64,000 nt of DNA from Actinomycetota bacterium (GTDB taxonomy: Bacteria > Actinomycetota > Acidimicrobiia > Acidimicrobiales > JAJPHD01). The position numbers were made by a program, and so were the translations under genes. Below the pieces are notes generated by a model, which saw nothing but the letters and a program-made list of their open reading frames with translations, ran no database searches and was not told the DNA's origin. Positions 48,515 through 64,000 of this stretch are shown here, piece by piece (position 1 is the first letter of the stretch; the number at the start of each line of letters is the position of its first letter). The DNA lies in contig JAJPHD010000008.1 of NCBI GenBank assembly GCA_021325455.1, positions 62,001-126,000 on the forward strand, in the 5' to 3' direction.

Positions 48515-48596
48515 CTCCGGTGAACTATTACCGCCCCCGGCCCCCCTCAACCAGTTCGTGAGCCGACCGGGGCCCGTGGGAAGATCACCATCCGCG

Positions 48597-50270
48597 ATGC
48601 CACGAGCCCGCACCGTCTTCAGCCGCCGTGCCGCACTGGACCGCCTGGCAAGGGAGAGCTTCGACGTCCTGGTGCTGGGCGGGGGCATCACCGGGGTGGG
48701 CGTGGCCCTGGACGCAGCCGCCCGGGGCCTGCGCACGGCCCTGGTGGAGCGGGAGGACCTGGCCTCCGGCACCTCCTCCCGCTCCTCCAAGCTCGTCCAC
48801 GGCGGGCTGCGCTACCTCCAGCAGCACGAGTTCGCCCTGGTGCACGAGAGCCTGGCCGAGCGCCGGCACCTGCTCGCCAACGCCCCTCACCTCGTGCACC
48901 CCATGGAGTTCCTGATACCTCGGTTCGGGAACGCCACCGGGGCCCGGACCGTCAGCACCGGGCTGTGGGTCTACGACCTCGCCGGGGGATGGCGCATCGG
49001 CCATTGGCACCGCCGGGTGAGCCCGGCATGGGCCCACCGCCGCCTCCCGGCCCTCCGGCCCGACCGGCTGGTGGGGGGATGGACCTACTGGGACGCCCAT
49101 GCCGACGACGCCCGCCTGACGCTGGCCATAGCCCGGACCGCCGCCCTCCACCATGGAGCGGCCGTCGCCACCTACACGCCGGCCACGGGCTTCTTGATGG
49201 ACGGGGCGGGGAAGGTGGTGGGGGCCAGGGTGGCGCCGGCGGGTGGCGAGGAGATGGAGGTCAGGGCCGGGGTGGTGGTGAACGCCACCGGGGTGTGGGC
49301 CGACCAGGTCGAGTGGTGGGCCGAGGGCCGGGCCGGGGCTGGCCACCACCCGGAGCGCCCTGGCATCCGGCCGGCCAAGGGGGTGCACGTCACCGTGCCC
49401 GCCAACCGGCTGCCCACCGACCTGGCCGTGGTCCTGCCCGTACCGGGGGACCGGCGCACGATCTTCGTGGTGCCCTGGGGGGGCCAGGTCTACCTGGGCA
49501 CCACCGACACCGACTACCGGGGGTCGCTCGAGGACCCCCGAGCCACCCCCGATGACGTGGGCTACATCCTGGAGGCGGCCAACCACTCCCTCACCACCCA
49601 CCTGTCGCCGGCCGACGTGACCGGCGTGTGGGCGGGCCTGCGGCCCCTGCTCGCCGACGACAGGGTGCCGGCCCGTACCGCCGACCTCTCACGCCGCCAC
49701 CAGGTGGGCGTGTCCCCGAGCGGCCTGGTCACGGTCACCGGGGGCAAGCTCACCACCTACCGCCTGATGGCAGCCGACACCGTGGACCGGGTGGTCGGCC
49801 TCCTCGGGCGGGGGAGCCGGCGCAGCCCGACCGCCTCCCTCCGCCTCCACGGGGCGGCCGGGGGGGGTCACCGGGCTGGGCCGCCCGGGACCGACCCCGC
49901 CCTGTGGGACCACCTGACCCGGCGGTACGGGGCCGAGGCGGGGTCCGTGCTGGCCCTGGCCCGGACCCGGCCCGAGCTGGCCCGCCCCCTGGTCGAGGGG
50001 CTTCCCTACCTGGTGGCCGAGGCGGTGTGGGCGGCCCGCTACGAGATGGCCCACACCCTGGAGGACGTCCTCTCCCGGCGCACCCGGGCCCTGCTCCGGG
50101 ACCGCCTGGCCACGGCCCGCGCCGCCCCCGAGGTGGCCGGCGTCCTGGCCGGCGAGATGGGGTGGGACAGCGAGGAGACCGCCCGCCAGGTGGCCTCGCT
50201 CGTGGAGAGGGTTGCCACCGAGGGCCGGCTCGCCGGCCTCGCCGTCCCCGAGCCCGTGACCCCCCGCTGA
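48597..50270 (+). CDS. glpD: Glycerol-3-phosphate dehydrogenase (FAD-dependent)
   Basis: A 557-residue membrane-associated flavoenzyme oxidising sn-glycerol 3-phosphate to dihydroxyacetone phosphate and feeding electrons to quinone. The FAD motif is DVLVLGGGITGVGVALDAAARG. The GlpD signature RSSKLVHGGLRYLQQHEF, the KGVHVTVP and PWGGQVYLGTTDTDY segments and VTVTGGKLTTYRLMAADTVD follow in order. A C-terminal helical domain begins near residue 420. The ATG at 48597 is used. The next gene starts seven bases after its stop. Confidence 0.94.
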   Translation: MPRARTVFSRRAALDRLARESFDVLVLGGGITGVGVALDAAARGLRTALVEREDLASGTSSRSSKLVHGGLRYLQQHEFALVHESLAERRHLLANAPHLVHPMEFLIPRFGNATGARTVSTGLWVYDLAGGWRIGHWHRRVSPAWAHRRLPALRPDRLVGGWTYWDAHADDARLTLAIARTAALHHGAAVATYTPATGFLMDGAGKVVGARVAPAGGEEMEVRAGVVVNATGVWADQVEWWAEGRAGAGHHPERPGIRPAKGVHVTVPANRLPTDLAVVLPVPGDRRTIFVVPWGGQVYLGTTDTDYRGSLEDPRATPDDVGYILEAANHSLTTHLSPADVTGVWAGLRPLLADDRVPARTADLSRRHQVGVSPSGLVTVTGGKLTTYRLMAADTVDRVVGLLGRGSRRSPTASLRLHGAAGGGHRAGPPGTDPALWDHLTRRYGAEAGSVLALARTRPELARPLVEGLPYLVAEAVWAARYEMAHTLEDVLSRRTRALLRDRLATARAAPEVAGVLAGEMGWDSEETARQVASLVERVATEGRLAGLAVPEPVTPR

Positions 50271-50277
50271 GCCGGCC

Positions 50278-51768
50278 GTGGTCACCCTGCCCCCCGTCCC
50301 CCTGGCGAGCGGCGCCCGCAGGCGCCTGGGCGCCACCCCGGTGGAGATCGGGGACCGGGTGCTGGAGCGGTTGCGGGACGCCTGCCCGGCGGTGGAGGAG
50401 GGGGAGGAGGCCCGCCTGGGAGCCGCCCGGGACTGGTGGCCCCTGTCCCTGCACTGGGCCCGGGAGGGCCTGGTCCCGGCCCTCCCGGGGGCGGTGGCCC
50501 GGCCCGAGAGCACGGCCCAGGTGGCCGGAGTGGTGGCGATCTGCGCCAAGCACGGTGTCCCCGTCACGGTGGTGGCCGGCCGCAGCGGGGTCTGCGGGGG
50601 GGCGGTGCCGGCCTATGGGGGCCTGGCCCTGGACCTGGTGGGGCTGGCGGGCGTGGAGGAGGTCGATGTCCGCTCCCTCCTGGTCCGGGTGGCGGCCGGC
50701 ACCTTCGGCCTCGACCTCGAGGGAGCCTTGAGGGAAGGGCACGGCCTGACCCTCGGGCACTGGCCCCAGTCCATCCAGCTGTCCACCGTGGGGGGCTGGC
50801 TGGCCTGCCGATCGGCGGGCCAGTACTCCACCCGTTACGGCAAGATCGAGGACATGGTGACGGGCCTGCAGGTGGTGCTGGCCTCGGGCCAGGTGGTGGA
50901 GACGGGGGGACGGGCACCCCGGGCTGCCACCGGGCCCGACCTCAATCAGTTGTTCGTGGGCAGCGAGGGCACCCTGGGGGTCATCACCAAGGCCTGGCTC
51001 CGGGCCCACCCCCGGCCCCCCTGCGAGCGGATGGGGGCCTGGGGGTTCGCGGCCTTCGACGCCGGCCTGGAGGCCTGTCGCCGGGCCCTGCGGCGGGGCG
51101 CCACCCCTGCGGTCCTGCGCCTCTACGACCGGGCCGAGGCGTCCCGGCACTTCGGGGCCGAGGAGGATGGCGTGCTGATCGCCCTCGACGAGGGCGATCA
51201 GCTGGTGGTGGAGGCGGCCATGACCGTGCTGGCCGAGGAGTGCCGGGCAGCAGGGGGCCGACCCCTCGGCGAGGGCCTGGTGCGGAGGTGGCTGGAGACC
51301 CGCAACGACGTCCCCCCCCTGGCCGCCCTCACCGAGGCCGGGATCGTGGTGGACACCGTCGAGGTGGCGGGGCGCTGGTCGGTGCTGGCGGCCCTCTACC
51401 ACCGGGGGACGGAGGCCCTGGCCTCGGTGGAAGGGACGGTGGCGGCCTCCGCCCACCTTTCCCACGCCTACCTGGACGGGGCCTGCCTCTACTTCACCTT
51501 CGCCGGCCAGGGCCGGGACGACCCCGAATGGGCGGAGGGCTACTACCGGGCGGCCTGGGACGCCATCATGGGCGCCACCTTGAGCTCGGGAGCGGCCATC
51601 AGCCACCACCACGGCATCGGGCTGAACCGGGGCCGGTTCCTCGCCGCCGGCCTGGGGCCGGCCTTCCCCGTGCTGGTGAGGCTCAAGGAGGCCCTCGACC
51701 CGGCGGGGATCCTCAACCCGGGCAAGCTGGGCCTCCCCTCGCGCTTCGGGCCACTGCCGTGGCCATGA
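50278..51768 (+). CDS. FAD-binding oxidase, alkyl-DHAP-synthase-like
   Basis: A 496-residue flavoprotein of the vanillyl-alcohol-oxidase/alkyldihydroxyacetonephosphate synthase type. The PCMH FAD domain shows VPVTVVAGRSGVCGGAVP and STVGGWLACRSAGQYSTRYGKIEDMV. The C-terminal part has FVGSEGTLGVITKAWLR, and the active-site SHHHGIGLNRGRFL resembles the HHH motif of alkyl-DHAP synthase. Known AGPS makes ether lipids from acyl-DHAP; bacterial relatives next to glpD have no proven activity. GTG 50278 is the start, seven bases after glpD. Confidence 0.84.
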   Translation: MVTLPPVPLASGARRRLGATPVEIGDRVLERLRDACPAVEEGEEARLGAARDWWPLSLHWAREGLVPALPGAVARPESTAQVAGVVAICAKHGVPVTVVAGRSGVCGGAVPAYGGLALDLVGLAGVEEVDVRSLLVRVAAGTFGLDLEGALREGHGLTLGHWPQSIQLSTVGGWLACRSAGQYSTRYGKIEDMVTGLQVVLASGQVVETGGRAPRAATGPDLNQLFVGSEGTLGVITKAWLRAHPRPPCERMGAWGFAAFDAGLEACRRALRRGATPAVLRLYDRAEASRHFGAEEDGVLIALDEGDQLVVEAAMTVLAEECRAAGGRPLGEGLVRRWLETRNDVPPLAALTEAGIVVDTVEVAGRWSVLAALYHRGTEALASVEGTVAASAHLSHAYLDGACLYFTFAGQGRDDPEWAEGYYRAAWDAIMGATLSSGAAISHHHGIGLNRGRFLAAGLGPAFPVLVRLKEALDPAGILNPGKLGLPSRFGPLPWP

Positions 51769-51844
51769 CGGGTGAGCGGACAGGAGAGGTGGAGGGCAGG
51801 GAGCTGCCTTTCGCCAAGGAGCGGGTCAGGAAGGACCGAGGAAC

Positions 51845-53311
51845 ATGAGCATCCTGGTGGTTGACGCCGGCACCAGCGGCGTGCGGGGGGCCGTCGTCGA
51901 GGGGGACGGGACGGTGAGCCACACCGTCCACCGGCGGGTGCCGCCCAGCTCCCCTGCTCCCGGGTTCGTGGAGTTGGACGCCCGGGTGCTGGCGGAGGCG
52001 GCGCTGGAGGTGGCAAGCGAGGCGCTCTCGGCGGGCGGCCCGGTGGAGGCGGTGGGGATCGCCAACCAGCGGGCCACCACCATCGTGTGGGACCGGGCCA
52101 CCGGGGAGCCGGTGGGGCCGGGCATCAGCTGGCAGGACCTGCGCACGGCCGGGATGTGCCTCAGCCTGGCAGCCCAGGGGATCCGCCTCGCACCCAGCGT
52201 GTCGGCCACCAAGCTGGCCATGCTGCTCGACCTGTCCGACCCCGACCGGTCCCGGGACCTGTGCTTCGGGACCGTGGAGACCTGGCTGGCCTGGACCCTC
52301 TCCAAGGGGTCTGTCCACGTGACCGACGCCACCAACGCGGGGGTGACCGGCCTGGTGGAGGGGGAGACGCCGGTGTGGTCGGAGCGCATCCTGGCCGCCC
52401 TGCGCATACCGGCCTCGGTCCTGCCCACCATCGTCGACTCCTCGGGGCCGGTGGGCGAGGCCACCGCCCTGCCGGGGGCGCCCCCCATCACCGGGCTGGC
52501 GGGTGACCAGCAGGCGTCGCTGGTGGGCCAGGGCTGCACCAGGCCGGGGCTGGCCAAGGCCACCTTCGGCACGGGCGGGATGCTGGACCAGTGCACCGGG
52601 GAGGGCCGGCCCGGCTTCGACACCCGCGGCGAAGGAGGGTGCTTCCCCATCGTGGCGTGGCGCCGGCAAGGGAGGTTGCGCTGGGGGGTCGAGGCCGTCA
52701 TGCTCACCGCCGGCACGGCCGTGGACTGGCTGGTGGACGACCTCGGCATCCTGGGCTCGGCGGCCGAGTCCGATGCCGTGGCCGCTTCCTGCCCCGACAC
52801 CGGGGACGTGTGGTTCGTGCCGTCCCTCCTGGGGCTGGGCACGCCGGTGTGGGACTTCGGCGCCCGGGGGCTCCTGATCGGCCTGACCAGGGGGACGGGA
52901 CGACCCGAGGTGGTGCGGGCGGTGCTAGAAGGGGTGGCTCATCGGGGAGCCGACCTCGTGGAGGCGGCAGAGAGGGACTCGGGGTTGCCCATCGCTTCGG
53001 TCAGGGTTGATGGAGGGATGAGCGCCAACGACACGTTCCTCCAGCTCCTGGCCGACGCCACCAGCCGGCCCGTCGAGGTGTCGCCGGTGCTGGAGGCGAC
53101 GACCCTGGGGGCGGCCTACCTGGCCGGCATGGCCGTGGGCACCTGGTCGGACGAGGAGGAGGTGGCCGAGGCCTGGTCGCCCCGGAAGGTGGTCGAGCCC
53201 TACCAGGGACCGGGTGCGGAATCCCGGGCCCGGGCCGCCAGGGAGAGGTGGCTGGAAGCCCGGTCCCGGGCCGAGCGCACCGTGCCGGAGCTGTCAGCCC
53301 TGGAGTTCTGA
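51845..53311 (+). CDS. FGGY-family carbohydrate kinase, glycerol-kinase-like
   Basis: A 488-residue FGGY kinase. The phosphate loop VVDAGTSGVRGAVV, AVGIANQRATTIVWDRATGEPVGPGISWQDLRTA, LAGDQQASLVGQGC and KATFGTGG follow the GlpK pattern, and the signature VRVDGGMSANDTFLQLLAD is intact. It is more divergent than the glpK at 38386. Its place after glpD and the AGPS-like gene suggests glycerol or a related triose/polyol as substrate. The ATG has a GAGGAA ribosome site. The 76-base leader after the AGPS-like gene may hold a secondary promoter. Confidence 0.88.
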   Translation: MSILVVDAGTSGVRGAVVEGDGTVSHTVHRRVPPSSPAPGFVELDARVLAEAALEVASEALSAGGPVEAVGIANQRATTIVWDRATGEPVGPGISWQDLRTAGMCLSLAAQGIRLAPSVSATKLAMLLDLSDPDRSRDLCFGTVETWLAWTLSKGSVHVTDATNAGVTGLVEGETPVWSERILAALRIPASVLPTIVDSSGPVGEATALPGAPPITGLAGDQQASLVGQGCTRPGLAKATFGTGGMLDQCTGEGRPGFDTRGEGGCFPIVAWRRQGRLRWGVEAVMLTAGTAVDWLVDDLGILGSAAESDAVAASCPDTGDVWFVPSLLGLGTPVWDFGARGLLIGLTRGTGRPEVVRAVLEGVAHRGADLVEAAERDSGLPIASVRVDGGMSANDTFLQLLADATSRPVEVSPVLEATTLGAAYLAGMAVGTWSDEEEVAEAWSPRKVVEPYQGPGAESRARAARERWLEARSRAERTVPELSALEF

Positions 53312-55273: not shown

Positions 55274-57637
55274 CTACAGGACCCGGGCGGTGGCTCGCCG
55301 CCCGGGGAGCTTGACCACCTCGATGGCGTTGGGCAGCTGCTCCTTGATGTCGCTGGCATGGGTGACGACCAGGACCTGGCGGAACCGCCCCCGCAGCCGC
55401 TCCAGGGCCAGCAGCATCCGCTCTTTGCGCTCGTCGTCCAAGGGGCCGAAAACCTCGTCCAGCACGAGCAGCCCCACGGCGCCGCCGGACTGGAAGCGGA
55501 CCTGCTCGCTTATGGCGACGCGCAGGGCCAGGTTGGCCAGGTCGGTCTCCGAGCCCGAGAAGCGGCGCATCCCGTAGCTGGTCCCCTGGTCGCGTATCTG
55601 GATCTCGTAGGTCTCCGGGTCCACCTCCAGCTGGTCGTACTCGTGGTCGGTGAGCTCGGCGAAGAGCTCTCCCGCCTGGGCCGACAGGCGCGGCCCCACC
55701 GTGGCCACCACGGTGTTGCGAAATGCCCCCAGAAGCTCGGCCGTCCTGCCCAGGTGGCGGCTCTCGTCAGCCAGGTCCCCCAGGCGGCGGTGCTGGGCCT
55801 GAGCCTCCTCCAGGCGGGCCTCGGCTCCCTGGAGGGCGGCCTGGGCCCGGGCCAGGCCGAGCTGGGCCTCCTGGGCCGCCGAGGCAGCCCGTCCTGCTTC
55901 CTCCCGGGCCAGCCGGTACGCCTCCCGAGCCGCCTCCAGGTCCTGGGGGCGGAAGCCGAGCCCCCGCACCTCCTCCCGCAACCCCTCGACTTGCTCCTCG
56001 AGGTCCTCCGTCCGGTGAGCCAGGTCCTCCAGCTCCCGGCGAACGGCGGGCCTGCGCTCCAGCCTCCCCCGGATCCGTGCCGCCTCGGCAGCAGCCGCCC
56101 TGCCCCGGGCAAGCTCGCCGGCCAGGTGGGCCCGGTAGCCGGAGAGGCGCTCCACCAAGCGGTCCAGCTCCCCGCCGGAGGCTTCGGCCGGCGGCAGGCC
56201 GGGACCGCCCAGGTTGGCAGCGGCCATCGACGCCAGGTCGACAGCGGTCGCCGCCGACATGGCCCGGTCCAACCGCTCCCGGGCATCATCCCGGCGCTGC
56301 CTGGCTGACTCGTAGGCCGCCTGCAGGCGTCTCGCCTCCTCCAGGGCGGACAGTGCCTCCGCCGCCTGGCGTTCGGCCTCGGAGGCGCGCTGGCGGGCTT
56401 CTCCCAAGCGGCTCAGAAGGGAGCCCAGCTCGGCCTCGGCCTCATCCAGCTCGGCCGCCCGGTGGGCCCGGACCTCCTCGAAGGCCGCTCCCAGGGCCTG
56501 GCCACACAGGGGACAGCTCGCCTCGCCCGAGAGCCCCGCCGCCTTGGCCACGGCCTCCTCGGCCCGCTGGCGCGCCGCTCGGGCCGACCCGATGCGGCCC
56601 TCCAGCTCGGCCACCGCCTGGCGAGCGACCTCCGCCTGCCGGGCCGCCTGGCCAACAGCCTCCTCGTCGGGACGGGCGGGCGGCGCCGGCACGGCGCCCG
56701 CCGCCGAGCCCAGCTCGGTGGCCGCCACCAGCACGGCGTCGACCAGCGGGAGGGCTGCCTCCAGCTCCTGCAGCGCCGCCCCCTGGGTCTCCAGGACAGC
56801 GAGGCGCTCCTCCTCCCCGGCCAGCTGGCGGTCCTCGCCGACCAGCTGCTGCTGGCGGCACCTGGCCTTGTCGAGTTCGTCCTTGGCCCGCTTCCCCTGC
56901 TCGACCAGGCGCTCCCAGTGCCGGCCCAGGTGGTCCAGGCGGTCCCGCTCCGCCTCCGCCCTGGCCTGCTCCTCAGCTGCACCGGCTGCCGCCTTGGCTC
57001 GCTCCTCGGCCCGCCCACTGGCCTCCTCGACCTGCAGGCGGTGGGCAGCGAGCTCTTCCTCCAGCTGGGACAGGTCGGCGAGCATCCCCCGCAGCCGGTC
57101 CACCTCCTCCCGACGGGCCCGGGCGTCCCTGCGGGCCTGGTCCCGTGCCGTGTCAAGAGGGGTGATGCCGAGGAGGCCCAGCACGAGGTCCCTGCGCTCC
57201 TGGGGCCTGCGCTCCGAGAAGGCGGCCAACTGGCGCTGCTCGGCAAAGACCGAGGCCCGGAAGGCGTCATCGTCCACCCCCAGGACGGAGTGCACGTAGC
57301 GGCCCGTGTCGCGTACCCCCTCGGTCACCTGGGAACCGTCGGCCCAGGCCTCGGCCCGGGCCGTTGAGGCCACCCCTGACAGCGTGCGGCGCACCAGGTA
57401 GAGGTGCCCCTCGTGCTCGAACTCCAGCTCGGCCACGCAGTCGGAGTTCACCCCCGAGGTCCGCACCTCATCCTTGGGGGTGCGGGCCACCCCCCACAAG
57501 GCCCAGAGGAACGACTCCAACAGGGTGGACTTCCCCGAGCCGTTGGGCCCGTAGATGCCCACCAGCCCCGGGGGGATATCGAGGTCCAGCTCCTCGTAGA
57601 CCCGGTAATGGCGGAGGTAGAGATGGGTGACCCTCAC
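55274..57637 (-). CDS. sbcC: SbcC/Rad50-type DNA-end-processing ATPase
   Basis: A 787-residue SMC-like ATPase that works with the SbcD/Mre11 nuclease on DNA ends and hairpins. The Walker A motif is GPNGSGKST (30-38). Long coiled coils flank a zinc hook CPLC (376-379). The C-terminal ABC signature is FSGSETDLANLALRVAIS, followed by Walker B LLVLDEVFGPLD. It is shorter than E. coli SbcC (about 1048) and close to archaeal Rad50 length. The GTG has a GGAGGTG ribosome site. It follows sbcD by 46 bases and ends a four-gene operon. Confidence 0.93.
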   Translation of the reverse strand: MRVTHLYLRHYRVYEELDLDIPPGLVGIYGPNGSGKSTLLESFLWALWGVARTPKDEVRTSGVNSDCVAELEFEHEGHLYLVRRTLSGVASTARAEAWADGSQVTEGVRDTGRYVHSVLGVDDDAFRASVFAEQRQLAAFSERRPQERRDLVLGLLGITPLDTARDQARRDARARREEVDRLRGMLADLSQLEEELAAHRLQVEEASGRAEERAKAAAGAAEEQARAEAERDRLDHLGRHWERLVEQGKRAKDELDKARCRQQQLVGEDRQLAGEEERLAVLETQGAALQELEAALPLVDAVLVAATELGSAAGAVPAPPARPDEEAVGQAARQAEVARQAVAELEGRIGSARAARQRAEEAVAKAAGLSGEASCPLCGQALGAAFEEVRAHRAAELDEAEAELGSLLSRLGEARQRASEAERQAAEALSALEEARRLQAAYESARQRRDDARERLDRAMSAATAVDLASMAAANLGGPGLPPAEASGGELDRLVERLSGYRAHLAGELARGRAAAAEAARIRGRLERRPAVRRELEDLAHRTEDLEEQVEGLREEVRGLGFRPQDLEAAREAYRLAREEAGRAASAAQEAQLGLARAQAALQGAEARLEEAQAQHRRLGDLADESRHLGRTAELLGAFRNTVVATVGPRLSAQAGELFAELTDHEYDQLEVDPETYEIQIRDQGTSYGMRRFSGSETDLANLALRVAISEQVRFQSGGAVGLLVLDEVFGPLDDERKERMLLALERLRGRFRQVLVVTHASDIKEQLPNAIEVVKLPGRRATARVL

Positions 57638-57683
57638 GGGCCACCTCCGCTTGCCCCGGCCTCGGGGCGGAGCCTGGCGGTTC

Positions 57684-58799
57684 TCACCGGCTTCCCTCCA
57701 CGGCCCTGCCCAGGTACTCCCGGCCCAGCCGGTCGATCCGGTCACGGTCGTACCCGGTCAGGTCCTGGCCTCGCACGTACCTGGCCCATTGGGCAGGCAT
57801 GGCGTCCAGCTCGGGCAGCTGCACGTTGGCTTCCACCCCGGCGAACTGGGGCTCCAGCCGGCAGACCAGCGCGTCCCGGTGGGCCTCGCGGATGGCGTCG
57901 GCGGGCAGCAGCCGATAGGCCTCGGGGTCCACCCCCTCCAGGTAGAGCCGGGCCACGGCACCGGGGGGGACCTCGGAGACCCGCTCCAGCACCGCCTGAG
58001 CCAGCTCGTCCGGCCCCAGGCCGAGGGCCTCCACGGTGGGCAGGGTGACGAGGGGGCGCTGGCCCGTCAGGGGCAGGTGACGGCACACCCCGGTGTCGGT
58101 GTCGAGGGTGATGACGCCCTTCTCCCGGTCCGGCTCGTCCCCGAAGCTGAAGGTGTCGGTGGATCCCGCGTACCACATGCCCGGCCGCACCTGGGTGTGG
58201 ACGTGGTAATGGCCGAGGAGGACCAGGTCGGCCCGTATGGACCCGGCATCGACCTCGATCTCGTTGATGTCGGCGTGACGGGGCTCGACCTGGGGAAGCC
58301 GGGGATGGGTGAGCAGCAGGTTGACCCGGTCCAGGCTCCGGGAGCGGTCCGCCTCGTCCAGAGCCTCCAGGGTGGCCTCCACCGTCAGCATCTGGGGGAC
58401 GGCGTGGACCACCAGGCCGGGGAGCTCTATCCGCTCGTAGGCCAGTCGGTGGGCGAAGTGGAACATGGGGAAGGCGTCGGCCAGGGCGGAGTAGGGGCTG
58501 CCGGTGCCTGGCAACCGGGGGGTGTCGTGGTTGCCGCTTATGACCACCGCCACCCGGCCGTGGTCCCGGATCCGGGCCAGCGCCCTCTGGGCCACGCGAA
58601 AGGACCTGTACGTGGGCCTCGGGTGGTCGAAGATGTCGCCCAGCCAGATCACCAGGTCGGGCTCCTGGGCCAGGGCCAGGTCCACGGCGGCCTCGAAGGA
58701 GACCTCGAAGTCCCGTTCGCGCTGATTGACCCCCTCCGGGGTGGTCGCCGGGTAGTAGGAACGTCCCAGGTGGGCGTCGCCCAGGGCAGCGACAAGCAC
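57684..58799 (-). CDS. sbcD: SbcD/Mre11-type nuclease
   Basis: A 371-residue metallophosphoesterase nuclease, the partner of SbcC/Rad50. Metal motifs are in order: GDAHLGR near residue 8, WLGDIFDH with Asp55, SGNHD with Asn90-His91, a later LLTHPRLPQ and LGHYHVHTQ. The C-terminal third forms the capping and Rad50-binding region. Length is near that of archaeal Mre11. The start is GTG 58799. It lies 18 bases after herA, within the operon. Confidence 0.92.
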   Translation of the reverse strand: MLVAALGDAHLGRSYYPATTPEGVNQRERDFEVSFEAAVDLALAQEPDLVIWLGDIFDHPRPTYRSFRVAQRALARIRDHGRVAVVISGNHDTPRLPGTGSPYSALADAFPMFHFAHRLAYERIELPGLVVHAVPQMLTVEATLEALDEADRSRSLDRVNLLLTHPRLPQVEPRHADINEIEVDAGSIRADLVLLGHYHVHTQVRPGMWYAGSTDTFSFGDEPDREKGVITLDTDTGVCRHLPLTGQRPLVTLPTVEALGLGPDELAQAVLERVSEVPPGAVARLYLEGVDPEAYRLLPADAIREAHRDALVCRLEPQFAGVEANVQLPELDAMPAQWARYVRGQDLTGYDRDRIDRLGREYLGRAVEGSR

Positions 58800-58817
58800 A
58801 GCAGCTCCCTCCCTCGG

Positions 58818-60476
58818 CTACTCCACCATGGCCGCCACGTTGGGGGCGGCGCGGGGGCGAGGGGCCGGGGGGGAGGCCACGTTGGCCACATGGCGGTCGT
58901 AGAGGTGGACCTTGGCCGGCACGGCGAAGGGGGCAGCCAGGTTGACCACCAGGCACTCCCCCGGCATCAGCGTCTGGATCTCGGGACCGAGGGCGGACAG
59001 GTCCTGCTTGGACGAACCCCTCAGGATGGAGCGGTCCTTCTCATCGGCCAGCCCGAGGATGAAGAACGTGTTGAGCTGGCTGAGGAGCTCGTCGTCGAGG
59101 AGCTTGGGCTGCTGGGTGATGGCGCAGATCCCCACCTTGAACTTCCGCCCCTCCCGGGCCAGGCGGGGGAACACGTTGGACTCTCGGTCCTTGCTCGCCG
59201 ACAGCACCCGCTGGGCCTCCTCCAGGACCACGGCGACCACGGGCAGACGCTCGTGACCGGCGGGGTCCTCCAGGTAGGCGCTGGACCAGGCGTCGAGCAC
59301 CCGCCGGGTGAGGAACGAGGCCACCAGGACCTCCTCGGTGGAGGCCAGCCCGCTCACGTCGATCAGCACCACCCGCCCGTCCCGCAGGTCTTGGAGGACG
59401 GCCGATCCCACTGACACGGCCGGGTCGGTGGAGATGCAGGACAGCCCCACGATGCGCCGGGCCCGACGCTGGGTCACCTGCAAGGTGTTGAGGGCCACCC
59501 GGCCGGAGAGCTCGGCGTCCCGGAAGCCGGCCAGGTCCTCCACCCGGGCGAAATCTGCCAGCCAGGAGAGCCCTTCGGCCCGGTAATGGCGTTCCAGCTC
59601 GAAGAGGGCCTCCTCCTGGGGTCGGGTCCAGTCGTGGGCGGTGCGCAGGTCGTCCACGCTCAACTCGCCCAGGCTGACGCTCAGGCTGGTGGTGCCCGGG
59701 AGGGACCGGGCGGCATAGGTACGCAGGCGCTCGGCGGCCCACGGGTGGCGGGACAGGGCGGCGCGGTACTCGCCGTGCGGGTCCACGATGAGCAGCCCGT
59801 AACGGCCCTGCCTGGTCATGACCGCGCCGGCCAGCACCTGCATGAGGTTGGACTTGCCCATCCCGGTGGTGGCGAAGATGCCGACATGGCTGGCCAGGGT
59901 CTCCCCCGGGATCCCGACCTCCACCTCCACCTCGGACTCACCGCTTCGCAGCCAACCAACGGTCAGGTCGCCCATCCTGCCTCGCAGGAAGGCGAAGTCA
60001 GCCGGCTCCGGCGAGACCACCCGGGAGAACTGGGTGGGGAGGCTCTTGGGCTTGAGGAAGGAGCGCCCGTCGGGTGACAGGTACCCGAGGCAGCGGCACT
60101 CGGCCACCCGGTAGGTGCGCCGGCCGGCGTCGTGGAGGGGATGGGCCCCGCTCTCCCCCAAGGTGTCATCGACTAGGAGGGTGCCTGCCACCCGCTCCGC
60201 CCATCCGGGCTCCCGGTGCTCGCTCCCATAGGTCACGTCCACCACCCGGAACAGGTACCGCCGCCCGGTCCCCTCGTCCACCCCGACCAGCAGCTCACCC
60301 AGGAACAGGTCCTCGTCGGGGGCGGCCCGGAACACGGCCTCGAGCACGTTGCGCCCGAACAGCCGGCCCCTGGTGGCGTCCCGGGGCCCCGGCCTGTCCG
60401 GTATGGCGCCCAGGCCCGCTCCAGGGGCGTCCATGGCCGTCCCATCAGCACTCATGCCCGCTCCATCAGGACTCAT
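58818..60476 (-). CDS. herA: HerA-type DNA translocase
   Basis: A 552-residue hexameric ATPase of the HerA/FtsK superfamily. The N-terminal beta-barrel (HAS-like) domain covers about 30-190, including FLKPKSLPTQFSRVVSPEPADF. The ATPase core has Walker A TTGMGKSN (203-210), a VDPHGEYR segment, Walker B VVAVVLEEAQRV with Glu419/Glu420, and the ITQQPKLLDDELLSQLNTFF sensor region. HerA drives end resection together with NurA. ATG 60476 overlaps the nurA stop (ATGA). Two further in-frame ATGs at 60455 and 60434 lie in a tandem repeat and may also be used. Confidence 0.92.
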   Translation of the reverse strand: MSPDGAGMSADGTAMDAPGAGLGAIPDRPGPRDATRGRLFGRNVLEAVFRAAPDEDLFLGELLVGVDEGTGRRYLFRVVDVTYGSEHREPGWAERVAGTLLVDDTLGESGAHPLHDAGRRTYRVAECRCLGYLSPDGRSFLKPKSLPTQFSRVVSPEPADFAFLRGRMGDLTVGWLRSGESEVEVEVGIPGETLASHVGIFATTGMGKSNLMQVLAGAVMTRQGRYGLLIVDPHGEYRAALSRHPWAAERLRTYAARSLPGTTSLSVSLGELSVDDLRTAHDWTRPQEEALFELERHYRAEGLSWLADFARVEDLAGFRDAELSGRVALNTLQVTQRRARRIVGLSCISTDPAVSVGSAVLQDLRDGRVVLIDVSGLASTEEVLVASFLTRRVLDAWSSAYLEDPAGHERLPVVAVVLEEAQRVLSASKDRESNVFPRLAREGRKFKVGICAITQQPKLLDDELLSQLNTFFILGLADEKDRSILRGSSKQDLSALGPEIQTLMPGECLVVNLAAPFAVPAKVHLYDRHVANVASPPAPRPRAAPNVAAMVE

Positions 60477-60490
60477 GCCCGCTCCATCAG
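60450..60490. repeat. 21-bp tandem repeat across the nurA-herA junction
   Basis: Two copies of a 20-base identical segment (60450-60469 and 60471-60490), spaced as a 21-base tandem unit, span the end of nurA and the start of herA. On the coding strand each copy contains an ATGAGT, so the duplication multiplies the herA start codon. It produces the repeated N-terminal residues GAGMSPDGAGMSADG. Confidence 0.8.
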
Positions 60491-61507
60491 CCGATGCCGA
60501 TCGGCGAAACAGCGCTCTCGCTGCGCCAGCCCTACTCCCACTCGCTCGAGGTGCTCGTCCAGGGCCATGCGGGCCTCCGTCCGGACCCATCCCGGGCAGC
60601 CAGCCAGGCGGTCCGCCACCGACAAGGGGTAGGGATAGCCCGGGAAGGCGGCATCGTCTGCGGTGGCCGCCACCATGCCCAACGCAGTCTGGGGATCAAG
60701 GCCCAGGGGAAGGCGATGGGGCAGGTCCACCCGGAAGGCGAAGCGGGCGGCAGGATCCAACCGGGCCACCGTCACGCTGAGGGCAGGCTCCACCCCCTCG
60801 GCGGTTGCTGCCACCCGGGCCCACCAGCACGCTCGGCCCCCCAACCCGGGGTCTGCCTCAGCTTCGGCCTCCAGCTGGCCGACCAGGGGCACACCGCCGC
60901 GCGACAAGCCGGAGTGCTTGGTCACTCCGGCGACCAGGACCCCCCGCTCCGCGGCCCGGCCCAGGAACTGAGCCACCCAGGTCCCGGGAATACGCCAGTC
61001 CGGCTGGAGGTCGCCGTCCATGAGGACCAGCGCACCCGGCTCCGCCTCCTCCACGGTCCGGGCCAGCAGCTCCCACTCACCGGCATCCCGCAGCAGGTTG
61101 GCGTCCAAGGGAGCATCGGGAGACAGCTCCAGCCCCAGCTCGGCCAACCAGGCCCGGGCCGGCCCGTCGTCACCTCCGCCGAGGAGGTAGGCACGAAGCT
61201 GGCCCTCCTCCTCCTCGACAGGCTGCCCGCACCGCCACCTGGCTCGGGCCGCCCTCACCACCACCACGGCCAGGCACCGACCGTCGGCCACCGTGGCCTG
61301 CCCCCCGTCTATCCCCCACACCTCGGCCGGGCGCGGCCCCCTGGCGAGGGGTCGGAGCCGTGCCTCCGCGTCGGGAACCAGGCCGGCGTGGCCGGTGCCC
61401 CCCAGCCGCCCTGCACCCCCCGCCAGCAGGCTGGCGAGCCGGTACGCCACCGCCTCGATGGTCTCCGCTCCACCCACGCCTCCCAGCCTGCCAGGAGGGT
61501 GTGACAC
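60473..61507 (-). CDS. nurA: NurA-domain 5'-3' nuclease
   Basis: A 344-residue NurA-family nuclease that partners HerA. The first catalytic Asp is in EVWGIDGGQATV (Asp67), the second in LVLMDGDLQPDWR (Asp164). The C-terminal FPGYPYPLSVADRLAG and the VTKHSGLS segment are further family marks. The GTG at 61507 is the longest start; GTG 61477 is a possible shorter one with a purine-rich leader. Only 27 bases separate it from the divergent membrane-protein gene. It is the first gene of nurA-herA-sbcD-sbcC. Confidence 0.88.
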   Translation of the reverse strand: MSHPPGRLGGVGGAETIEAVAYRLASLLAGGAGRLGGTGHAGLVPDAEARLRPLARGPRPAEVWGIDGGQATVADGRCLAVVVVRAARARWRCGQPVEEEEGQLRAYLLGGGDDGPARAWLAELGLELSPDAPLDANLLRDAGEWELLARTVEEAEPGALVLMDGDLQPDWRIPGTWVAQFLGRAAERGVLVAGVTKHSGLSRGGVPLVGQLEAEAEADPGLGGRACWWARVAATAEGVEPALSVTVARLDPAARFAFRVDLPHRLPLGLDPQTALGMVAATADDAAFPGYPYPLSVADRLAGCPGWVRTEARMALDEHLERVGVGLAQRERCFADRHRLMERA

Positions 61508-61534: not shown

Positions 61535-63160
61535 GTGGAGGTGACGCCTAGGGCCCGGGCCCCGGAGCCCCTCCTGGTCGAGGTCGTGGTCGGGAACCCG
61601 GCCGGCGGCCACGGAGCATCCCCGGGCCCGGCGGAGGGGATCACCGGCCGTCGCCATCGGCACCGGGGATGGGCGGCGTTCGCCGCCCTCGTCGTCCTCC
61701 TGGGCGGCCTGGCGGCTGCCGGCCCCCTCAGCCGGAGGGTGGAGAGGGGTGAGCTCCGCCGGCTGGAGGCCCAGTGGTCCACAGCCGTGGCACTCGACCT
61801 GGACCGCACGGCCTTGTCCGGCACCCTGGCCGGCCTAGCCGTGCCCTCCGACCGCGCCCTGGTCACCAGGGCGGACCGGGCCCTCAGAGCTGAGGAGGCC
61901 CGCCGCCTGGGAGTCCTAGAGGCCCAGGTGCGCTCGGACGGGGCCCTCGGCCACCGGCTGGCGACCATCCGCTCGGCCCTGGAGCAAGCAGTGGGGGCCC
62001 TGCGCGCCGACCTCCTCCCCGGGCGCTCCCCCCGGGCCGGCGCTGCCGTCAACCGGCTGAGCTCGCTCATGGCCGCGGGCCGACAGGCTCTGGGCGTCAC
62101 CGCCCCGCCACCTGGGTCCCGGGCCCGCCTGAGATCGGCCGGGGCTGCGCTCGCCCACCTGCACCACTACCTGGACAGCCGGACCGGCGATGACCTGCTC
62201 CTGGTCAACGGGGCCACGCCACCCCGGGTGGTGGAGGTGGACCGCAGCCGGGTCGGGGAGGCAGACCTCGGCCTCGGCCCTGGCGCCGCCGTTTCGGCCA
62301 TCGTGCCCAGAGCCGGCTTCTTGGCGGTGCTGGTCGAGGCCAGCCCCATGGGGGGGAACCTGTGGCGGGTCCCCCTCCGCCGAGGCGGCCACCCGAGGCT
62401 GCTGGCCCGGGGGGTCGAGAACGTCCTCCCGGCCGGCCCGCCCGACGCCGTGTGGACCCAGGACGCCGGGAGCCGCTTCAGGGAGGTCGATGGGGCCGGG
62501 CGGGTCCTCCTCGGCCCGGGGACCCTCAGGACCCCCCGGTGCTGCCTCTACCCCTACGAGTACCTGACCCAGGTCGTGAGCGTCGGTCCCTACCTGGCCT
62601 ACAGCTTCGGCTCACCCGGCCCGGGCGTGGCCACGCGGGGGCTGGAGCTGTGGAACCCTGCCAACGGTGCCTCCCACCTGGTGGCCCGGGGCTGCGCCGA
62701 CCCGCTGGCGGGAGAGGGGGACCTGCTGGCCTGGATGACCTGCTCCCGCCTCCCGGCCCTCCACGTGACGAACCTGGCCTCCGGCCTGACCCTGTCCGTA
62801 GGGGACCCCGCCGGCCTCCGGCCCGACCCGGTCGCCGCCTTCTCCCCTAACCACAGGTGGCTGGCGACCGAGATGACCAACTCCACCTCCACCAGGTCGG
62901 TCCTGGCGCTGGTGGACACCGCGACCGGCCGCCTACGCCTCATAGGCGGGGCCACCCCGGACCCTTCGCAGCCCGTCCTGGCGTGGTCCCCCCACGGGCG
63001 GCGGGTCTACTTCCTCGGTGCCGATCAGGCGGCGCCGGTGGCAACCTACGGGCTGGGAACGAGCGATGCCCTCGACCTGCGCTATCACGGCACCCCACCC
63101 GAGCCGGGGATCGTCAGCCAGCCCCTGGTGGTCCTGTCTGCCGGTAAGCTCAGCAGCGGA

Positions 63161-63166
<6 letters not shown>
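61535..63166 (+). CDS. Membrane-anchored propeller-like protein of unknown function
   Basis: A 543-residue protein I cannot assign. The N-terminal 45 residues are basic and Gly/Pro-rich; one hydrophobic helix follows (about 46-64, AAFAALVVLLGGLAAAG). Then comes a helical stretch (about 65-200). The C-terminal 330 residues are beta-rich with repeated short strands (LWRVPLRRGGHPRLLARGVEN, LVDTATGRLRLIGGA, AWSPHGRRVYFLGAD) that look like a TolB or WD40-type propeller. The topology suggests an extracytoplasmic sensor domain. The start is GTG 61535 or GTG 61541. Its stop codon lies inside the RNase P RNA P1 helix. Confidence 0.62.
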
Positions 63167-63539: not shown

Positions 63540-64000
63540 TCACTCCCCTACCTCCTCCCCGTGACCTGCGACTGACACATGAGCACCGAGCACCGGGTCC
63601 GCCGCTGCCCTGGTGCGGTCGTCGTCCTCGGGCCACAGATGGCCATAGACGTCGAGCGCCATTTGGGCTGACGTGTGGCCCAGGCGGGACTCACGACCCT
63701 GAGCGACTCCCGGGCCCGGATGAGGACCGAGGCGTAAAGGTGCCGGAGCTGGTGGTAGCCATCTCCGGTAGCGATGCCGAGCGGGCCGGCTGCCGACATC
63801 CAGGCTTCGGAGAAGGTCGTGCGGCGTACCGGCCCGCCCCGGGGCCCCCGTGAACACCAGGCCCTCCGGGCCCAGTCCAAATCAACGGACGTGAGCAGCC
63901 AGCTCCTCTACGACGAGGTCGGCCACCGGGATGGTCCCGGGTCTCCCAGGTGCTGTCCCCATTACCGCCCCGACCCTCGGCTGAGAAGCTCGGCCGGCAC
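63540..64000 (-). pseudogene. Tyrosine-recombinase (integrase) remnant
   Basis: Pieces of a phage-type tyrosine recombinase catalytic domain lie in different frames. TIPVADLVVEELAAHVR is followed by an in-frame TGA (about 63887), then GPEGLVFTG. After a shift come GGPVRRTTFSEAW and YHQLRHLYASVLI, with the HxxR active-site His and Arg. After another shift comes RLGHTSAQMALDVYGHLWP with the late His and catalytic Tyr. At least one stop and two frameshifts make it non-functional. It continues past the right edge. It points toward rnpB, ending 23 bases from the rnpB 3' end. Confidence 0.8.

Follow-up and report, generated by a model that had tools for sequence, protein, structure and literature searches.

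A run of four genes in a 64,000-nucleotide stretch of an Acidimicrobiia genome (hereafter the window) encodes homologs of NurA, HerA, Mre11, and Rad50, a set known as a linked operon in archaea, and raises the question of whether the locus was acquired from that domain or is an old bacterial operon, and what it does beside the other end-processing enzymes of its host. Bacterial HerA-NurA has been described as confined to a few bacteria without RecBCD, such as Deinococcus-Thermus (PMC9960219), and a review already mentions HerA/NurA in Actinobacteria (PMC8708640). Our analysis indicates, with a probability that we put at about 0.7, that the locus is a bacterial operon of ancient date that Acidimicrobiia have maintained by vertical inheritance, the products of which would process DNA ends with Mre11-Rad50 and HerA-NurA beside RecBCD and fill the role of SbcCD. 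The conservation of these four linked genes alongside RecBCD in one actinobacterial class offers a direct test of what such an operon contributes to break repair in bacteria, and the change at an active-site position of NurA throughout the clade, described below, offers a test of how NurA metal chemistry evolves.

Gene content and layout of the operon

The open reading frames show that nurA, herA, mre11 (sbcD), and rad50 (sbcC) lie head to tail on the minus strand, from position 61507 to position 55274 of the window. The nurA gene (60473–61507, minus strand) encodes a 344-residue RNase H-like nuclease, in which D67, E144, D164, and K197 are conserved and D299 replaces the His of other NurAs. 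The herA gene (58818–60476, minus strand) encodes a hexameric ATPase/translocase of approximately 552 residues from the ATGA start at 60476, with the Walker A motif GMGKSN and the Walker B motif VVLEEAQ. The sbcD-like nuclease gene mre11 (57684–58799, minus strand) encodes 371 residues with the motifs GDAH, GDIFDH, GNHD, H165, and GHYH, and rad50 (55274–57637, minus strand) encodes a short sbcC-like ATPase of 787 residues from a GTG start, with the Walker A motif GPNGSGKS, the zinc hook CPLC, and the Walker B motif LLVLDEVFG. The stop codon of nurA and the start codon of herA overlap as ATGA, and gaps of 18 and 46 bases separate herA from mre11 and mre11 from rad50, respectively. These coordinates bear out the initial annotation, which had described four co-directional genes with this overlap and these gaps; its claim of a complete HerA-NurA-Mre11-Rad50 set also holds: all four genes are adjacent and co-directional, and their family assignments are supported.

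Pfam domains were detected in HerA (DUF87, 5e-20), Mre11 (Metallophos, 2.6e-9), and Rad50 (AAA_23, 8.8e-19, together with an SbcC Walker B model). The best PDB match of HerA was SsoHerA (4D2I, 1.9e-39), and those of Mre11 and Rad50 were the M. jannaschii proteins (6e-17 and 7e-24, respectively). HerA has the ATPase motifs and is most similar to repair-type HerA, and the phosphoesterase motifs of Mre11 and the ABC ATPase ends and CxxC hook of Rad50 are all present. Both Mre11 and Rad50 of the operon scored under every NCBIfam cut-off for SbcC and SbcD. The SbcC had been noted to be of archaeal Rad50 length, and we found that Rad50 and Mre11 are both archaeal in type and length.

The host genome is an Acidimicrobiia draft of 2.9 Mb with 96% completeness. 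In a composition comparison, the G+C content of the operon matched that of its surroundings, and no foreign composition was found. Scans for a LexA-type box, a sigma-70 promoter, and a terminator at the start of the operon gave no match, although such scans mean little at the G+C content of the host.

Identity of NurA and its active-site substitution

NurA scored 15.3 bits against the Pfam NurA model, under the gathering cut-off of 21, and the lack of a match in the Pfam NurA search of the host genome reflects a limit of sensitivity, not the absence of the gene. A wider NurA-family profile matched Sulfolobus NurA (2YGK) at 8e-11, and the relatives within the clade align with invariant acidic residues in the clade alignment. 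The AF2 model of the protein (pLDDT 93.9) matched the folds of Deinococcus radiodurans NurA in its complex with HerA (7f6d, 2.7e-7) and Thermotoga NurA TM1739 (1zup), as well as endonuclease V and Argonaute structures. The TM-scores for the NurA structures were low (0.40–0.46), so that the structural comparison speaks for membership in the RNase H-like class, whereas the identity as NurA rests mainly on sequence and context. We conclude that the 344-residue protein is a NurA variant, because fold, remaining catalytic residues, and context agree despite Asp299. A narrow NurA profile had given TdpB as the best PDB match, which was a first hint of a defence system; the wider profile gave SsoNurA instead.

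The activity of Sulfolobus NurA requires D58, E116, D133, and K202 (PMC4351679), and the requirement for D58 is also reported elsewhere (PMC4641729). The equivalent residues D67, E144, D164, and K197 are invariant in all 69 aligned NurAs. By contrast, position 299, which follows the invariant GYPYPL motif, is Asp in all 38 of the Acidimicrobiia members of this 69-sequence alignment and His in all 31 others; the split follows the clade exactly, and Asp was seen nowhere else among the sequences sampled. SsoNurA likewise has His after GYPYPL, and so do all 12 additional NurAs taken from other actinobacterial families. The initial annotation had stated that the key residues are intact in each gene. 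This is correct for the motifs of HerA, Mre11, and Rad50 and for the D/E/D/K residues of NurA, but not for the His after GYPYPL. The simplest reading is a single His-to-Asp change on the long stem of the Acidimicrobiia NurA clade.

In the AF2 model, position 299 sits in the helix that follows the RNase H-like core, and we take the corresponding His of Pyrococcus furiosus NurA to be part of the metal site. Active sites in the RNase H-like superfamily are built from D and E, with H also used in some families (PMC3985635). The swap makes the site all-acidic, as is more typical of RNase H-like enzymes, and, speculatively, may shift metal use from Mn2+ towards Mg2+; loss of the His could instead lower the activity and not retune it.

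Distribution of the operon

Sampling across the families of the order gave NurA of the operon type in 15 of 59 genomes, host included, and a sample of the phylum gave it in 13 of 296; its presence is patchy at both levels. The initial annotation had proposed a survey of relatives for the same gene order. In the 14 relatives within the order, each from another family, herA, mre11, and rad50 adjoin nurA in the order seen in the host, over whatever part of the locus the contigs cover, which excludes a chance arrangement.

When a HerA alignment was run against 84,980 species genomes, it gave 298 relatives, the best 80 of which were inspected. These 80 come from Acidimicrobiia, other Actinomycetota, Zixibacteria, one FCB bacterium, and archaea (mostly Thermoplasmatota), and 39 loci among them carry all four genes on one strand and in order, including loci of deep Actinomycetota (L080, L086, and L087), Zixibacteria (L088, L093, and L101), and one Thermoplasmata genome (L096). 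Outside the order of the host, the copies with the four-gene order are more divergent. The tight linkage of mre11 and rad50 is seen in 32 of 32 actinobacterial four-gene loci.

Several loci depart from the compact layout. In the subclade with Acidiferrimicrobium sp. IK (L060), herA and mre11 are separated by extra genes; in one locus (L064, 10619–12578) an antisense MarR-NUDIX-NERD cluster occupies this place, and similar gaps occur in L054–L073. One genome of the order (G048; L198, 2261–5552) has operon-type mre11-rad50, with nurA and herA not found alongside, an apparent partial loss of the operon.

Phylogeny and origin

The trees of HerA, Mre11, Rad50, and NurA each contain a single Acidimicrobiia clade, with support values of 100/100, 100/100, 97, and 100, respectively. 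The next relatives of this clade are other Actinomycetota (L072, L074, L075, and L079), although the placement of L075 is unsettled in the NurA tree. Mre11 and Rad50 of the operon stand apart from the ordinary SbcD and SbcC found in this order on branches with support of 100/100 and 100, and thus form a separate clade and do not group with ordinary actinobacterial SbcCD, the placement that would have spoken for plain vertical SbcCD descent.

The initial annotation had left the choice between an inter-domain transfer and an old bacterial version. The old version is favored by the clade in four trees, the spread over at least 15 families, the Actinomycetota kin, the host-like G+C content, and the partly shared neighbors, and a recent inter-domain transfer into Acidimicrobiia is not supported. 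An origin in which the operon reached Acidimicrobiia, or an early actinobacterial ancestor, from archaea would agree with the archaeal structures being the best matches of Mre11 and Rad50, and with the similarity of Thermoplasmata HerA (41–46%), which equals that of Zixibacteria HerA. AU tests on the deepest branching of HerA kept two alternatives (p 0.29 and 0.20), and the former is a tree that joins the Acidimicrobiia clade with Thermoplasmata HerA; the data overall speak against a recent archaeal transfer and leave room for an ancient exchange with archaea. However, the nearest kin for all four genes are other Actinomycetota, the same gene order occurs in deep Actinomycetota and Zixibacteria, and the best tree places the Thermoplasmata-type HerAs in a clade of their own (96/97); long stems and the 15 families exclude a recent event. 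We therefore regard an archaeal source as improbable and prefer an ancient operon that was maintained vertically in Acidimicrobiia.

Coexistence with RecBCD and apparent displacement of SbcCD

The contrast with RecBCD implied by the initial annotation fails for the host, whose genome contains complete recC, recB, and recD in an intact recCBD operon. RecC (852 bits) and RecD (464 bits) scored over their NCBIfam cut-offs and RecB scored 689 bits against a cut-off of 696, and the nuclease motif DYKTNWLG is readable in RecB. AdnAB was not found in the host, where the PDDEXK_1 matches listed include only one stand-alone protein of approximately 330 residues. The host has no second SbcC, and its other long AAA_23 protein is an SMC. 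Ordinary SbcC occurs in 0 of 15 NurA-positive and 17 of 44 NurA-negative genomes of the order, and on this basis the operon appears to take the SbcCD slot without replacing RecBCD in the host. Where RecBCD is present, resection may not require the operon.

A replacement of AdnAB or RecBCD by the operon as the main recombinational end-resection enzyme was first suggested for the host by the missing AdnAB and was ended there by recCBD. For the order, it can draw on the counts of AdnAB-like genes among the PDDEXK_1 matches listed (6 of 15 NurA-positive vs 34 of 44 NurA-negative genomes, Fisher p 0.012), which rest on manual scoring of long PDDEXK_1 frames in draft genomes and ignore relatedness, and on two NurA-positive genomes, G028 (97% complete) and G038 (93% complete), which show neither AdnAB nor RecBCD among the matches listed. 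RecBCD itself was found in 5 of 15 NurA-positive and 10 of 44 NurA-negative genomes (p 0.50, likewise from draft genomes with relatedness ignored). Because AdnAB pairs accompany the operon in several carriers, some NurA-negative genomes also seem to be without both enzymes, and the AdnAB test takes no account of relatedness and draft gaps, we consider a general replacement doubtful.

Proposed function

In the families concerned, Mre11-Rad50 opens blocked DNA ends, and HerA-NurA degrades DNA processively. The biochemistry, the pathway, and the cooperation of the two complexes at this locus would be those expected from the gene families. Mre11-Rad50 most likely recognizes and trims blocked or protein-bound double-strand ends; the HerA hexamer would then pump the duplex into the NurA dimer, which would degrade it, mainly on the 5′ strand, and leave DNA for RecA-dependent repair. 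In the host, the operon would act beside RecBCD and in the role of SbcCD, and in some relatives end processing may rely mainly on it.

The formation of recombinogenic overhangs by HerA-NurA is disputed even in archaea: Thermococcus kodakarensis HerA-NurA cuts both strands and did not produce overhangs, and an antiviral role has been proposed for it (PMC12977600). Deletions of nurA or herA in Deinococcus and Thermus had modest or even protective effects (PMC9960219). HerA-NurA might accordingly be mainly a means of degrading invading double-stranded DNA, with the link to Mre11-Rad50 reflecting shared end recognition, and the patchy distribution and the matches of HerA to PADLOC defence models (best 2.4e-25) point in the same direction as the T. 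kodakarensis proposal. However, NurA and Mre11 have no PADLOC match, among solved structures the archaeal repair HerA 4D2I is nearer to the operon HerA than the defence HerAs are, and the constant mre11-rad50 linkage and partly conserved chromosomal neighbors across many families are unlike a defence island. Considering this constant link, the many families, and the weak defence-model matches, we judge an antiviral function unlikely and prefer a repair role beside RecBCD.

Comparison with known systems

The archaeal operon of Sulfolobus, Pyrococcus, and Thermococcus shares with the Acidimicrobiia form the four families in one operon, the nuclease and ATPase motifs, and the short Rad50. The Acidimicrobiia form differs in its bacterial host with RecBCD, in the Asp that stands for His in NurA, in a NurA score under the Pfam cut-off, and in the uniform order nurA-herA-mre11-rad50. 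Deinococcus-Thermus bacteria also have a HerA-NurA pair, and the fold of the NurA described here matches DrNurA (7f6d), but they lack RecBCD/AddAB (PMC9960219), whereas the Acidimicrobiia host has RecBCD and its operon includes mre11-rad50. Bacterial SbcCD belongs to the same Mre11/Rad50 superfamily, with a nuclease and a zinc-hook ATPase; the operon Rad50 (approximately 790 residues) forms a clade separate from SbcC, the frames of which span roughly 850–1200 residues. TdpAB and other HerA-nuclease defence complexes likewise combine a HerA-like ATPase with a partner nuclease, and TdpB is weakly similar to NurA, but here mre11-rad50 is linked, defence-type partner genes are absent, and HerA is nearer to the repair type.

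No description of the operon in Acidimicrobiia was found in the literature searched, which was covered in part. Operons of this kind are known; what marks the Acidimicrobiia form as a variant is Asp299 in NurA, the coexistence with RecBCD, and the displacement of SbcCD. It seems rather unlikely that Acidimicrobiia possess a distinct system in which NurA was rebuilt from His to Asp as an all-acidic, Mg2+-using enzyme, SbcCD was displaced, and resection depends on the operon alone in some lineages that lack AdnAB and RecBCD.

Neighboring genes

Divergent from nurA, a gene on the plus strand (61535–63166) encodes a 543-residue protein with no Pfam, NCBIfam, or PADLOC match. Beyond it, short ORFs on the minus strand (63540–63857) look, on inspection by eye, like the C terminus of a tyrosine recombinase (GHTSAQMALDVYGHLW); an overlapping ORF (63548–63880) has no Pfam match. 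On the other side, genes for a glycerol-3-phosphate oxidase-like protein, an FAD-linked oxidase, and an FGGY kinase (48558–53311) adjoin the operon. Similar oxidase and kinase genes lie near the operon in approximately 10 other Acidimicrobiia loci, sometimes upstream of it and sometimes downstream.
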